This document shows positions 52,198-58,381 of a stretch of 64,000 nucleotides of DNA, one piece after another. The stretch comes from Sporocytophaga myxococcoides DSM 11118 (GTDB taxonomy: Bacteria; Bacteroidota; Bacteroidia; Cytophagales; Cytophagaceae): the NCBI RefSeq assembly GCF_000426725.1, contig NZ_AUFX01000006.1, forward strand, positions 434,001-498,000, in the 5' to 3' direction. The notes under the pieces are model-generated. The model saw only the letters and a program-made list of their open reading frames with translations. It searched no databases and was not told where the DNA came from. A program made the translations under genes and the position numbers. Numbering within the stretch: the stretch's first letter is position 1; each line of letters starts with the position of its first letter.

Positions 52198-52851
52198 TTA
52201 AAATGCAGCTCCGATTTTAAATCCGATCCTTACTCCAGGTCTTTGTCCATCTTCTTCCACCCCAATATATGAAGCTGCCTTTTTAGGATCTGTTATAATT
52301 CTTTTATTCTCATAAGTAACTGGCTGCAAAGTCCTTAATTTCATCTGAGGACCTATATAAAAATCCATAACAAAAACCTTTGCAAAAATAAATTGAAACC
52401 CTCCTAATACACCTCCTCCAGCTTCTGTATAACTGTATGTGGCATTATAGTCATTGTTAGGAGTTGTATTGTCATTAAATTCAACATCATATTTACCATA
52501 TCTTCCAAATGCTGAGATGTAAAATCCTTTAGGAGCTGCCCAGGTTGTGTTTGTTAAATAGTATTTAAGTTCTGGTACAACGGTATATCCTGAATAAATT
52601 TTTCGATCCTCAGATCTGGTATTATCATTATCTGTCCATGTAAGTCCATAACTATCTTGAATATGACGATAGCCGCCGGTAACCTGAAATGAAACCTTAT
52701 CATTAATCGCCCTTTCATAGGCCAAATTCAAGCTGGCAGCAAATAGTTCTGGGAAGCCTATTTTAAGAACATTCTTAGGATCAGCTTTTTGAGCAAAAGA
52801 ATTTACTACTGCAAAAAATAATAAGCTCAGAGTTAAAAGATTTTTTTTCAT
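52198..52851 (-). CDS. Outer-membrane beta-barrel protein (DUF3575-like), 217 aa
   Basis: A signal peptide (MKKNLLTLSLLFFAVVNSFA) precedes strands such as LKIGFPELFAASLNLAYERA, VSFQVTGGYRHIQDS, GFYISAFGRYGKYDVEF and VRIGFKIGAAF, with a terminal Phe. KIGFPELFAASLNLAYERAI is characteristic of small Bacteroidota barrels that open L-x-x-N-x-x-x-x-E-R. Its function is unknown. It is monocistronic. Confidence 0.78.
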   Translation of the reverse strand: MKKNLLTLSLLFFAVVNSFAQKADPKNVLKIGFPELFAASLNLAYERAINDKVSFQVTGGYRHIQDSYGLTWTDNDNTRSEDRKIYSGYTVVPELKYYLTNTTWAAPKGFYISAFGRYGKYDVEFNDNTTPNNDYNATYSYTEAGGGVLGGFQFIFAKVFVMDFYIGPQMKLRTLQPVTYENKRIITDPKKAASYIGVEEDGQRPGVRIGFKIGAAF

Positions 52852-54356: not shown

Positions 54357-54596
54357 ATGAAAAAATTGTTTTTTCTATTCGTCTTGTTGTTCTCTTTGAA
54401 TTTTGCTGCACCTGTACTTGCCCAGAATGCTACTTCTTCTGAAGAAGTGGAAATGGCTGATGCATTCAGAAAGGAAGGTAAAATTTATGTAGTAGTGGGA
54501 ACTTTTGTACTGATTCTTACAGGAATCATAGTCTACCTTGTAGTGCTGGACAGAAAATTAACCAGAATGGAAGACGAAATCGAGCATCAAAAATAA
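54357..54596 (+). CDS. ccmD: CcmD-like small membrane protein, 79 aa
   Basis: A hydrophobic N-terminal segment (possible signal, MKKLFFLFVLLFSLNFA) is followed by a second membrane helix (IYVVVGTFVLILTGIIVYLV) and a Lys/Glu tail (RKLTRMEDEIEHQK). The position between ccmC and ccmE, and the second helix followed by a charged tail, fit CcmD, which holds CcmC and CcmE together. This form is longer than the proteobacterial one because of the extra N-terminal part. Confidence 0.8.
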   Translation: MKKLFFLFVLLFSLNFAAPVLAQNATSSEEVEMADAFRKEGKIYVVVGTFVLILTGIIVYLVVLDRKLTRMEDEIEHQK

Positions 54597-54598
54597 CC

Positions 54599-55012
54599 AT
54601 GAAAAAGACTCACATTATAGGGCTCCTTGTTATCGCTATTTGTATCGGTGTTATTGTTTCAACGTCCGGAGATACAAGCGCCTACGTTACATTTAAGGAA
54701 GCATCCGAAATGGCAGCCGACGGAAATAAGAACAAAGTGCATGTAGTTGGCAAAGTAAAAAAAGACGCCAATGGCCAGTTAACAGACTTTTACTACAAAC
54801 CTGAAATGGATCCAAATTATTTTGCATTCAAACTGATTGACCAGAATAACGAGGAACAGGAAGTAGTATACCTCAACCCTAAACCACAGGATTTTGAAAG
54901 AGCTGAACAAATTGTGGTAATTGGCAGCACTCAGGATAAAATCTTCAAAGCAGATAAAATCCTTATGAAATGCCCTTCAAAATATGAAGAAAAAGAACTG
55001 AAGGCTAATTAA
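54599..55012 (+). CDS. ccmE: Heme chaperone CcmE, Cys-type
   Basis: The 137-residue protein has an N-terminal membrane anchor (THIIGLLVIAICIGVIVS) and an OB-fold domain (VHVVGKVKKDANGQLTDFYY ... FKLIDQN ... VVVIGS-type strands). The heme-binding site reads CPSKY (Cys125, Tyr129) where E. coli CcmE has HxxxY with a covalent His130. It is thus the CxxxY class of CcmE, known from some anaerobes, archaea and others. It delivers heme to CcmF. It is 2 bases after ccmD and 16 before ccmF. Confidence 0.92.
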   Translation: MKKTHIIGLLVIAICIGVIVSTSGDTSAYVTFKEASEMAADGNKNKVHVVGKVKKDANGQLTDFYYKPEMDPNYFAFKLIDQNNEEQEVVYLNPKPQDFERAEQIVVIGSTQDKIFKADKILMKCPSKYEEKELKAN

Positions 55013-55028
55013 TTAAACTATCGAATTC

Positions 55029-57584
55029 ATGCGTGCATATCTGGGCGACCTTGGCCACCTTTGCGTCATCATCTCATTTATATTTTCCATACTTGCTACC
55101 ATTTCTTTCGGAAAAGCAACAGTATCTATAGATGCACCTAAAAAAGATTCCTGGCTCAGATTTGCAAGAGGCATCTTTTTCATCCACTCACTGGCCGTAT
55201 TTGGTATAGTTGCAGCTTTATTTACCATAATAAGCCAGCATTACTACGAATACCACTATGCCTGGAGCCACTCTTCCAACAATCTTCCATCCGAATACAT
55301 GATTTCATGTTTCTGGGAAGGTCAGGAAGGAAGTTTTCTACTCTGGACCTTCTGGAATGTCCTACTTGGTTTAATTCTTATTAAAGTAAATAAAACCTGG
55401 GAAGCGCCAGTCATGACGATCTTCTGTCTTGTCCAGCTCTTCCTTTGTTCAATGATATTGGGAGTTGTTATCCCTGGACTTGATTTTAAAATTGGTAGTT
55501 CTCCATTTATTTTATTGAAAGATTATATGGGAGATATTCCTGTATATCAAATCAATCCGAATTTTATTCCTGAAGACGGCACTGGCTTAAACCCCCTATT
55601 GCAGAATTACTGGATGGTAATTCACCCTCCTACTTTATTCCTTGGCTTCGCTGCAACTCTTGTTCCTTTCGCATATTGTATGGCAGGTTTATGGCAAGGC
55701 AGATACAAAGAATGGATCAGACCAGCTTTTCCTTGGGCTCTATTCGCTGCAACAACTCTTGGTATTGGAATTTTGATGGGTGGTTATTGGGCATATGAAA
55801 CACTGAACTTTGGTGGTTACTGGAACTGGGACCCTGTAGAAAATGCTGTGTATGTACCATGGCTGGTATTGGTTGCAGCCATACATACCATGCTCATTTT
55901 CAAAAATAGTAATAAGTCTCTTCAGGCATCTGTAATTCTTATAACAGCACAGTTTATTCTGATACTTTATTCTACCTTCCTTACAAGAAGTGGAGTACTT
56001 GGTAACTCTTCTGTGCATTCATTTACAGACCTTGGACTTTCCGGACAGCTGTTGCTTTTCCTTTTTGCACTTATAATTGTAGCAGTAATCTTTATAATCG
56101 TTCGCTGGAAAAAGCTTGGAGGAGACGACAGTGAAGAAGTATCCGTTTACTCCCGCGAATTCTGGATATTTATTGGAGTAGTTGTATTCTGCCTGGCAGC
56201 TTTCCAGGTTCTTTACACAACCTCTATTCCTGTTTACAACAAATTCCTTGGCTGGATAGGCATAGAATCCAACATTGCCCCTCCTGCAGACCAAATTGAA
56301 CATTATTCCAAATTCCAAATCTGGGCAGGTATACTGATTGCTCTGATTTCGGCTATTGGTCAGTTTTTCTGGTGGAAAAAAATGGATAGCAAAAAGCTCT
56401 GGGAAGAAATCAGCATACCGGCTATCATTACTTTACTGGTTTCCAGTGCACTGATTTGTCTGACGATGATGAATAAAATCGACATCACTCCGACATATAT
56501 TCTGCTCTTTACAACTGCTCTTTTCTCAGTAATCAGCAATATTTCCATATTCATCAAAATAGTTAAAAACAACTATAAACTGACCGGAGGTGCAATCGCC
56601 CATATCGGTGTGGCCCTGATGTTATTCGGAATTCTGTTTTCATCAGGGTACTCAAAAGTCATTTCCCTTAACACTACCGGGTTGATTTATTCCAAAGAAG
56701 CAGGTAATGACTTCAACAGAGACAATATCCTTCTATGGAGAAATGAATGGAAAGAGATGAATGACTACAAGCTGAAATTCATCGGACCAAGACTTGAAGC
56801 AAAAGATTACCCGGGTTATATCAAAAAAGAGCACCTGATTCTGCTGGATGATAAATACAAGGCTCTTGCTAAAAAAACAATAGAACACGAAGGAAAAAAA
56901 TATTTTGACAAGGGAGATACAATAGAAATCTTTCCTGAAAATACATATTATGAAGTTTTAATAGCTAAAGCAAACGGTGATACTTTTACCCTATATCCAC
57001 GAGCGCAAGTCAACCCCACCATGGGACTCCTCGCATCGCCGGGCATAGAACACTTCTACGATAAAGATCTTTATGCACACGTTTCTTCCATTCCATCTCC
57101 TCAGGAAGAAAAAGAATGGTCTCCAACGGAAGAATATACCATTAAACCTGGAGATACCGTATTTATCAATGACTATGTAACAATACTTAATGAAGTTGAA
57201 AGAGTGAATTATGTACCGGGAATGCCGCTGGCGAAAGAAGACGCTGCAGTAATGGCTCACTTCCACGTACTTGACAGGGAGAAAAATCACAGCATTCACC
57301 CGATTTATATAATTAAGGTGAAAGAAGGTTTAGCCGGACAAATTCCGGATGTTAACGAAGACCTTGGGATCAAAATCAGCTTTCTTAATATTGACCCGAC
57401 TAAAGAGGTATTTACATTTGCAGTAAATACTACTCAGAAGGATTACATCATTTTGAAAGCAATTGAAAAACCTTTTATCAATATTCTTTGGATTGGAACT
57501 CTTGTTCTTGTAGCAGGAATGTTACTTGCTATGATCAGAAGATATCAGGAGTTTGCCAAAATGAGAGATAAAAACACCGAATAA
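55029..57584 (+). CDS. ccmF: Cytochrome c heme lyase subunit CcmF
   Basis: The 851-residue protein has about 14 membrane helices, the WWD region GGYWNWDPVENAVYVPWLV (262-280) and the periplasmic His block NYWMVIHPPTLFLGF. A long periplasmic C-terminal part of about 250 residues (from about 545) precedes the last helix (ILWIGTLVLVAGMLLAMI). It attaches heme to apocytochrome c, taking it from CcmE. No ccmG or ccmH lies nearby, so thioredoxin-like partners are encoded elsewhere or absent. Confidence 0.93.
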   Translation: MRAYLGDLGHLCVIISFIFSILATISFGKATVSIDAPKKDSWLRFARGIFFIHSLAVFGIVAALFTIISQHYYEYHYAWSHSSNNLPSEYMISCFWEGQEGSFLLWTFWNVLLGLILIKVNKTWEAPVMTIFCLVQLFLCSMILGVVIPGLDFKIGSSPFILLKDYMGDIPVYQINPNFIPEDGTGLNPLLQNYWMVIHPPTLFLGFAATLVPFAYCMAGLWQGRYKEWIRPAFPWALFAATTLGIGILMGGYWAYETLNFGGYWNWDPVENAVYVPWLVLVAAIHTMLIFKNSNKSLQASVILITAQFILILYSTFLTRSGVLGNSSVHSFTDLGLSGQLLLFLFALIIVAVIFIIVRWKKLGGDDSEEVSVYSREFWIFIGVVVFCLAAFQVLYTTSIPVYNKFLGWIGIESNIAPPADQIEHYSKFQIWAGILIALISAIGQFFWWKKMDSKKLWEEISIPAIITLLVSSALICLTMMNKIDITPTYILLFTTALFSVISNISIFIKIVKNNYKLTGGAIAHIGVALMLFGILFSSGYSKVISLNTTGLIYSKEAGNDFNRDNILLWRNEWKEMNDYKLKFIGPRLEAKDYPGYIKKEHLILLDDKYKALAKKTIEHEGKKYFDKGDTIEIFPENTYYEVLIAKANGDTFTLYPRAQVNPTMGLLASPGIEHFYDKDLYAHVSSIPSPQEEKEWSPTEEYTIKPGDTVFINDYVTILNEVERVNYVPGMPLAKEDAAVMAHFHVLDREKNHSIHPIYIIKVKEGLAGQIPDVNEDLGIKISFLNIDPTKEVFTFAVNTTQKDYIILKAIEKPFINILWIGTLVLVAGMLLAMIRRYQEFAKMRDKNTE

Positions 57585-57601: not shown

Positions 57602-58381
57602 ATGGGCTATAGAGTAACTATGATCGGTTCGGGCAATCTGGCCAGTCATCTGGCCCCTGCTCTTGAAAATGCCGGGCATTTTGTTAATGAAGTATATTCA
57701 AGAAGTTCCGCCTCGGCGAAAAGTTTGTGTAGCATGTTGTACAATGCTACTTGCGTCTCCAGCCTGGATTTCTCTGAAAGCAAATCTGCAATTTTTATCA
57801 TTGCTGTGAATGATGATGCCATAGAAGAAGTATCGGCTCAGATTACCCTTCCGCCAGATGGTATATTAATTCATACTTCTGGCACCAAATCAATATCAAT
57901 TTTATCTTGTTTCGGACATTTTGGGAGTCTCTATCCTCTGCAAACTTTTACCAAACGTAAAAAAGTTACCTGGGAAGAAATTCCGATTTTAACAGAAGGC
58001 TCCGACGAAGAAACAGCCAAACATATTTTAGCATTAGGAAAGAGTATCTCTGCGAAAGCATTTCAGGCTTCCGAAGAAAAAAGAAAGCTCATCCATCTTT
58101 CAGCAGTTTTCTCGGCAAACTTTGCAAATCATTTACTCTACATGTCAAAATCTATTCTGGATGAACATGACATAGACTTTACCATACTAAAGCCTTTGCT
58201 TTCTGAAACTCTGAAAAAAGCATTTGAAATAGATCCTATCAAGGCTCAAACAGGTCCTGCAGTAAGGAAGGATATTTCAACTATAAGAGATCATCTGAAA
58301 ATTCTTGACAATAAAGAAGATTTTAAGAAAATTTATAAAGACATTACTGAAAATATAATTAAAGTTCATTCACAATCTTAA
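57602..58381 (+). CDS. Rossmann-fold DUF2520 oxidoreductase-like protein
   Basis: The 259-residue protein begins with an NAD(P)-binding turn (VTMIGSGNLASHLAPALENA, Gly9-Ser-Gly11), then ILIHTSGTKSISIL and FGSLYPLQTFTKRK, and a helical C-terminal DUF2520 domain (HLSAVFSANFANHLLYMSK). The fold is that of ProC/6-phosphogluconate dehydrogenase relatives. The substrate is not known. It is 17 bases after ccmF and 4 before the HAD gene, so it may share their transcript. Confidence 0.85.
   Translation: MGYRVTMIGSGNLASHLAPALENAGHFVNEVYSRSSASAKSLCSMLYNATCVSSLDFSESKSAIFIIAVNDDAIEEVSAQITLPPDGILIHTSGTKSISILSCFGHFGSLYPLQTFTKRKKVTWEEIPILTEGSDEETAKHILALGKSISAKAFQASEEKRKLIHLSAVFSANFANHLLYMSKSILDEHDIDFTILKPLLSETLKKAFEIDPIKAQTGPAVRKDISTIRDHLKILDNKEDFKKIYKDITENIIKVHSQS

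Follow-up and report, generated by a model that had tools for sequence, protein, structure and literature searches.

Closest described systems

The closest described relatives of the locus presented here belong to System I*, which PMC3601427 characterizes by a cysteine-type CcmE and, often, by the lack of CcmH and CcmG. In the counts reported there, the motif CPSKY occurs in 25 of 36 bacterial genomes, and the holders named are delta-proteobacteria, Chloroflexi, and Firmicutes. By the same account, CcmH persists in about a third of the bacteria with System I*, so that a cysteine-type CcmE and the lack of CcmH have to be regarded as two distinct traits. A Desulfovibrio ccm operon without CcmG and CcmH was reported to function in E. 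coli, with heme bound covalently to its cysteine-type CcmE (PMC3601427), and in Methanosarcina, CcmABCEF were found to suffice, CcmE could be stained for heme, and a C120A mutant gave CcmE without heme (PMC9084895). The bond itself has been described in two ways, as covalent in the CcmE of D. desulfuricans (PMC3601427) and as non-covalent, through the cysteine, in that of D. vulgaris (PMC3884852).

The string "Bacteroid" is absent from the main text of PMC3601427, PMC9084895, PMC3884852, PMC4429474, and PMC6204919, and in the open-licence PMC literature up to 5 August 2026, a scope outside which most subscription journals lie, we found neither a treatment of CcmE or CcmF from Bacteroidota nor an experiment on them. 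Here, we describe a ccm operon from this phylum and propose, with a probability of about 0.8, that it specifies the membrane components of a System I* apparatus that is usual in the phylum, and in which a second copy of a CcmF domain may do the docking task of CcmH. The proposal draws on the gene content, the conserved cysteine, the displaced ccmA, the lack of detectable CcmH and ResB, the duplication within CcmF, and the association of this duplication with the lack of CcmH.

The ccm operon and its surroundings

By the window, we mean the whole stretch of DNA that was analysed, 64,000 nucleotides long (G000:C4:434001-498000), from a genome of 6.34 Mb in 21 contigs that is 99.96% complete. Its ccm genes lie in the order ccmB-ccmC-ccmD-ccmE-ccmF, all on the plus strand, between 52973 and 57584 (Table 1). 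According to Pfam, the upstream neighbour (52198-52851, opposite strand) encodes a DUF3575 protein and the downstream neighbour, at 57602, a DUF2520/NAD-binding protein, and none of ccmA, ccmG, and ccmH was found among the genes adjoining the operon. An earlier note on this DNA had given ccmB, C, D, E, and F as the only genes of the operon, which the Pfam matches and the neighbouring genes confirm; its description of an operon lacking ccmA, ccmG, and ccmH is likewise right, but for ccmA it does not extend to the genome, where a likely copy lies on another contig.

Table 1. Features of the ccm operon, with positions in the window
Feature	Position	Strand	Evidence
ccmB, heme exporter permease subunit, 221 aa	52973..53638	+	PF03379 E 2.7e-13, 50.3 bits, cut-off 24.9
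ccmC, 228 aa	53667..54353	+	PF01578 E 4.3e-16; His49 and His174 (axial) retained
ccmD-like, 79 aa, CcmD_alt family	54357..54596	+	PF20077 E 1e-19
ccmE, 137 aa, Cys-type heme chaperone	54599..55012	+	PF03100 E 7.2e-14, 52.4 bits, cut-off 24.6
CPSKY motif of CcmE, Cys125 to Tyr129	54971..54985	+	sequence
ccmF, heme lyase, 851 aa	55029..57584	+	PF01578 E 3.1e-26; PF16327 E 3.2e-14
CcmF periplasmic beta domain copy 1, residues 526-685	56604..57083	+	hhalign
CcmF periplasmic beta domain copy 2, residues 697-790	57117..57398	+	hhalign

Two of these proteins fall short of the corresponding NCBIfam models: CcmB reaches 19.8 bits with TIGR01190 (cut-off 156.2), and the CcmD-like protein, which has a hydrophobic stretch at its N-terminus as judged from the sequence, reaches 19.5 bits with TIGR04391 (cut-off 24). 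CcmC matches the E. coli CcmC of solved Ccm complexes (E 9.4e-6), and in an alignment restricted to proteins of 190-330 aa, both columns of its axial histidines hold H in all 90 rows. The tryptophan-rich motif of the window CcmC is WGESWSGDP and lacks the Trp that precedes Asp in WGTWWVWDA of E. coli. This Trp of the WWD motif is absent from the 20 same-class motif forms listed and is kept in 63 of the 64 forms listed for loci outside the class (for example, WGSFWNWDP). Among genomes of the same order, ccmE is accompanied by ccmD only in three loci (L089, L097, and L100) and stands alone in a fourth (L090), with no other ccm genes detected within about 8 kb.

A predicted second copy of the periplasmic domain in CcmF

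The CcmF of the window carries a WGGYWNWDPVEN-type motif and matches the CcmF of T. thermophilus (6zmq) at E 8.8e-37. Its AlphaFold2 model, with a mean pLDDT of 84.6, aligns with that structure at Z 35.7 and rmsd 2.8 across 568 residues; residues 543-815 are predicted to be beta-rich, with parts there below pLDDT 50, and Foldseek and VIA-align comparisons of the whole protein are dominated by the membrane part. For the CcmF structure alignment, the window protein was combined with 61 CcmF of named loci, each 740 aa or longer. For the comparison of residues and loop lengths, we used 94 relatives, that is, the loci that remained out of 100 when CcmF of less than 700 aa were set aside: 14 same-order loci, 18 of L143-L162, and 62 named loci, among which at least one genome occurs twice (L151, L201) and two loci are titled Bradyrhizobiaceae (L188) and Caldithrix (L241). 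His199, His286, His330, and His525 are conserved as H in every one of the 94 relatives, and the 12 sequences from outside likewise have H at these positions.

The last periplasmic loop, which runs from His525 to Pro815 before the last helix, has 289 residues in the window protein and 222-373 in the 94 relatives (median 236). When the relatives' loop was compared by hhalign with a profile built on nine short loops, one of them from Iamia, two tandem matches were obtained, the first spanning columns 1-160 at a probability of 98.0 (E 2.9e-13) and the second spanning columns 172-265 at a probability of 88.4 (E 2.8e-6). The first copy has internal insertions, and its first residues are part of the preceding membrane helix. 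The C half alone matches the standard loop with a probability of 93.3 and a score of 39.8, compared with at most 12.5 for 60 column-shuffled controls and 15.3 for the reversed one, while the N half matches the C half with a score of 34.2 (probability 79.5), compared with at most 15.4 for shuffled and 14.3 for reversed profiles. The off-diagonal match of the loop profile with itself (37-163 with 173-263) is weaker, with probabilities of 46.2 and 43.0. Judged by these profile comparisons, the extra length of the CcmF loop is a second tandem copy of the standard loop domain and, as far as the open-licence literature shows, an undescribed variant. The earlier note makes no reference to this enlargement of CcmF.

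CcmE gave no match to copy 2 (probability 0.2), and the match of its residues 7-61 to copy 1 (28.4) is probably due to a membrane helix. In addition to the doubled loop and apart from it, the CcmF of three loci (L176, L178, and L179) have about 100 extra residues before the position of His525.

Loop length and the absence of CcmH

The same loop measures 115-121 residues in 13 plasmid-borne systems with a Pfam-confirmed CcmH. Eight of these have a CcmE that was read as HxxxY (E. coli, Cupriavidus, Ruegeria, Sinorhizobium, Methylophaga, Vitreoscilla, and two Pseudonocardia), the stretches of three carry no annotated CcmE (Phaeobacter, Psychrobacter, and Roseovarius), and the remaining two, Metabacillus and Cytobacillus, combine CcmH with a CPSKY CcmE and yet have a loop of 117 residues. 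From the CcmH of the 13 systems, a profile was derived that recovers its own members at E 1e-42 or better and finds nothing at E <= 1 in the ccm loci of the 94 relatives, in three haloarchaeal stretches, or in two isolated ones, the search of the relatives covering the ccm loci only. The two isolated stretches are plasmid ccmF genes of Iamia (loop of 114 aa) and Nitratireductor (117 aa), which have short loops and no CcmH in the stretch seen; CcmH may lie elsewhere in these cases. The three haloarchaeal CcmF have loops of 225-236 residues, and a profile of these loops, made from three sequences only, matches the Bacteroidota loop with a probability of just 2.3, so the haloarchaeal enlargement looks separate. 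Desulfovibrio ccm loci were also sought among plasmids, where the only matches were from Rhizobium, Sinorhizobium, and Methylobacterium (E 3e-3 to 5e-2), and in viral_contigs, where none was found; Bacteroidota-type CcmE were likewise not found in viral_contigs.

Enlargement of the loop is thus associated with the absence of CcmH and not with cysteine or histidine in CcmE, although the 94 relatives belong mostly to one phylum, so that very few independent events underlie the association. The strongest alternative to our proposal is that the window encodes an ordinary System I* in which the doubled domain of CcmF is an elaboration specific to the lineage, with no connection to the missing CcmH, since the ABCDEF core works without CcmH anyway. 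The function of the Desulfovibrio operon in E. coli without CcmG and CcmH (PMC3601427) and the sufficiency of CcmABCEF in Methanosarcina (PMC9084895) both speak for it, as do the concentration of the 94 long-loop CcmF mostly in a single phylum and the two isolated plasmid CcmF, whose loops are short with CcmH not in sight. It sits less well with the division by loop length between the 13 CcmH-bearing systems and the 94 relatives plus three haloarchaea, a division that holds with cysteine-type CcmE too, as Metabacillus and Cytobacillus illustrate. Weighing these points, we place such an elaboration a little below even odds.

CcmH, CcmG, and ResB in the genome and the phylum

The earlier note had suggested that ccmA, ccmG, and ccmH be located in the genome; apart from the likely ccmA discussed below, a genome-wide profile search found no CcmH (best E 6.61), and the search for CcmG with TIGR00385 gave eight TlpA/DsbE-like matches, none of which is over the curated cut-off or lies at the operon. 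ResB, which marks System II, was not detected in the genome at E <= 1, and we therefore rejected System II as the maturation route. With PF13442, 11 cytochrome c matches were obtained, nine of them over the cut-off, which suggests that these proteins are the likely substrates of the maturation system.

For comparison, we used a sample of 395 genomes that we infer to be Bacteroidota in the wide sense, with class names assigned in the same way. Matches to CcmH exceed the cut-off in four of these genomes, none of them in the class of the window, and fall below it in seven more, two of which are in the same order as the source genome. The four matches over the cut-off, at L133-L136 (26-31 bits, one family), were not counted as ccm CcmH; they are membrane-anchored CxCGxC proteins, mostly with a zinc-ribbon-like N-terminal stretch, and may be distant relatives of CcmH. 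More broadly, the proteins at L133-L140 and L142, from phylum genomes belonging to two families, are membrane-anchored and possibly related to CcmH, with one or two CcmH-like CxCGxC...KYGG modules and, in most cases, a zinc-ribbon-like N-terminus.

It could be argued from the eight TlpA/DsbE-like matches, and from the CcmH-like CxCGxC proteins in some genomes of the phylum, that the role of CcmH is filled by an unrelated protein encoded elsewhere, such as a TlpA/DsbE-like thioredoxin, in which case CcmF need not compensate for anything. We consider this unlikely, given that none of the eight either reaches the CcmG cut-off or adjoins the operon, and that CcmH matches over the cut-off are confined to so few genomes of the phylum, all outside the window's class.

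A likely ccmA on another contig

A genome-wide search for ccmA points to a gene at C5:91892-92512. Of the 54 ABC ATPases that TIGR01189 matches in the genome, none exceeds its cut-off; the candidate (G000:C5:91892-92512, 207 aa) scores 94.5 bits, compared with a cut-off of 131.6. In a comparison of models, a bacteriocin-export ABC model gives 99.4 bits on this protein and two CcmA models give 96.4 and 95.0, all under cut-off. Because the CcmA models remain under cut-off and the bacteriocin-export model scores slightly higher, the assignment rests on synteny elsewhere and on co-occurrence. The gene sits right behind fabZ and lpxA, both of which are over their NCBIfam cut-offs. Across five loci including that of the source genome, lpxA is also just upstream in two (L107 and L120), one gene further away in a third (L104), and absent from the stretch of the last (L113).

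When the candidate was searched in the 395 phylum genomes, 200 had a match at E <= 1e-25. At least 21 genomes outside the window's class have CcmE and this best match on one strand, no more than about 2.5 kb apart. For two of the matches listed (G259 and G377), the distance to CcmE is 3-6 kb and the strands are opposite. Ten of the 21 genomes, picked for this adjacency, were fetched, and all ten show the order ccmA-B-C-(D)-E, with ccmF next in eight of them by tblastn. Within the window's class, which comprises 98 genomes by a hand count, CcmE is present in 44, the same 44 have ccmA at E <= 1e-25, and no genome has one without the other. A motif scan found no ABC gene beside ccmB in 20 same-order loci, over 12-16 kb around ccmE, in several of which ccmB, ccmC, or ccmF was also not found near ccmE. 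The co-occurrence with CcmE throughout the class, together with the synteny outside it, thus indicates that ccmA has probably moved and not been lost, and the gene on contig C5 is likely CcmA. With this assignment, which depends on co-occurrence and on gene order in genomes outside the class, the core proteins CcmA, B, C, D, E, and F are all encoded in the genome.

The cysteine at the heme-binding place of CcmE

The C-terminus of the window CcmE reads ...ILMKCPSKYEEKELKAN, with KCPSKYEEK followed by a short tail; the codon of Cys125 (tgc) occupies 54971-54973 and that of Tyr129 (tat) 54983-54985. The protein therefore has CxxxY instead of the HxxxY of classical System I. In profile alignments, its KCPSKY aligns with KHDENY of E. 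coli CcmE (1sr3, 8ce8) and its KCP with KCP of D. vulgaris CcmE (2kct). Thus, the sequence and the profile alignments bear out what the earlier note had seen, a cysteine in place of the heme-binding histidine with the tyrosine kept, and its description of a variant System I was equally sound. Since the CPSKY CcmE matches the published System I*, of which it is a member, this part of the finding is already known and not new. The NCBIfam CcmE models match the window protein, all below cut-off. Its AlphaFold2 model has a mean pLDDT of 85.7, and Foldseek retrieves the CcmE structures 8ce8_E, 1lm0, 1j6q, 2kct, and 1sr3 at E 1.2e-3 to 1.0e-2, none below 0.001. An odd OB-like match was seen in a nuclear pore protein, Nup160 of D. 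discoideum (PDB 9hcj chain R0, residues 1565-1650), which matches the CcmE profile at E 5.8e-7, better than the solved CcmE structures, and is also the top Foldseek match of the CcmE model.

Pfam detects CcmE in 253 of the 395 phylum genomes, and a KCPSKY-type DNA pattern is present in 249 of these, the pattern being counted per genome, with its position at CcmE not checked each time and the lists compared by hand. The four remaining genomes were read directly and show RCPSKY, QCPSKY, KCPSRY, and KCPSRY, all with cysteine. The pattern also occurs in 22 of the 142 genomes without a CcmE match; in two of these 22 (G253 and G391), the apparent absence was a Pfam miss, as the CcmE profile reveals a cysteine-type CcmE at E 1.6e-30 and 2.5e-26. 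Cysteine occupies the position in 80 of 80 aligned proteins (80 loci from 69 genomes, 11 of them represented twice). A larger alignment, which shares 21 proteins with the former set, likewise has cysteine in 121 of 121. However, 80 of the 121 come from named loci that were chosen by the KCPSKY pattern, so these 80 prove nothing about cysteine versus histidine. CPSKY is invariant in two alignments, one CcmE structure alignment took 47 of the 80 named CcmE together with the window, and none of the phylum CcmE sequences read is of the histidine type. The cysteine is therefore a phylum-wide trait, neither chance nor error. Outside the phylum, the CcmE of three haloarchaeal plasmids (L268:12919-13344, L274:10998-11369, and L275:1096-1551) contain no CxxxY, have no HxxxY at the usual place, and read ...VRAHEG...; archaeal CcmE are said to carry CXXXY universally (2022, PMC9084895).

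The expectation of the earlier note that heme is held via the cysteine agrees with the published behaviour of such CcmE (PMC9084895, PMC3601427), and by analogy the window protein would bind it in the same way. Cys125 might nevertheless be an iron ligand only, with no covalent bond to heme, as reported for the D. vulgaris protein (PMC3884852), and because of that report a covalent bond in the window CcmE is not certain. The covalent heme of D. desulfuricans CcmE and the heme-stained CcmE of Methanosarcina (PMC9084895) make the non-covalent version rather doubtful. A second CcmE with histidine, which the earlier note had named as the finding that would speak against its claim, was not found in the source genome, where a single match is over the cut-off (the window ccmE) and the second best (E 0.54, below the cut-off) lies inside a 507-aa frame. 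That the window CcmE is a degenerate paralogue, with cytochromes made by another CcmE or by System II, is hinted at by its moderate Pfam score of 52 bits and is very improbable in view of this single CcmE over the cut-off, the phylum-wide cysteine, and the lack of ResB.

Proposed mechanism and meaning

By analogy with published work on relatives, from which the roles of the Ccm proteins and the heme on Cys125 are taken, CcmC with CcmD would load heme on periplasmic CcmE via Cys125, with Tyr129 as the likely iron ligand, and CcmA, encoded behind fabZ-lpxA, would energise the release step together with CcmB. CcmF would then take the heme and attach it to the CXXCH of apocytochromes, and its copy 2 may assume, inside CcmF, the docking task that CcmH has elsewhere. 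The replacement of CcmH by copy 2 is suggested by the association described above, with few independent lineages behind it. It is also conceivable, if on the unlikely side, that in Bacteroidota and their sister classes a duplication of the CcmF domain took the place of CcmH, so that copy 2 receives the apocytochrome or holo-CcmE and CcmF alone serves as a cytochrome c synthetase. In that case, haloarchaeal CcmF would have reached the same size by a different insertion, and the solution would thus have arisen more than once.

The doubled domain offers a concrete and removable candidate for a CcmH stand-in, and a large bacterial group becomes a test case for the handover of heme to cytochromes without CcmH. 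Furthermore, the data part two traits that are often named together, namely the cysteine-type CcmE and the loss of CcmH.

Comparison with known systems

The system of the window resembles that of Desulfovibrio (the D. desulfuricans operon and D. vulgaris 2kct) in having cysteine for histidine in CcmE and no CcmH; according to the review, Desulfovibrio System I* also lacks CcmG (PMC3601427). Set apart from what the review describes for Desulfovibrio are the position of the likely ccmA away from the operon and the doubled CcmF loop. With the CcmABCEF of Methanosarcina, it shares a CXXXY CcmE and a maturation route for which CcmH is not needed there (PMC9084895), whereas Methanosarcina has no CcmD and a CcmF split in two, and the window has a CcmD-like protein and one enlarged CcmF. 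The plasmid-borne cysteine-type systems of Metabacillus and Cytobacillus likewise have a CPSKY CcmE; unlike the window, they possess CcmH (PF03918, 64-69 bits) and the short CcmF loop of 117 residues. Finally, the window shares with classical System I (E. coli ccmABCDEFGH) the CcmABCDEF core and the retained histidine ligands of CcmF and CcmC, but differs from it in that E. coli has a KHDENY CcmE, CcmG (DsbE), CcmH, and a CcmF loop of 116 residues.
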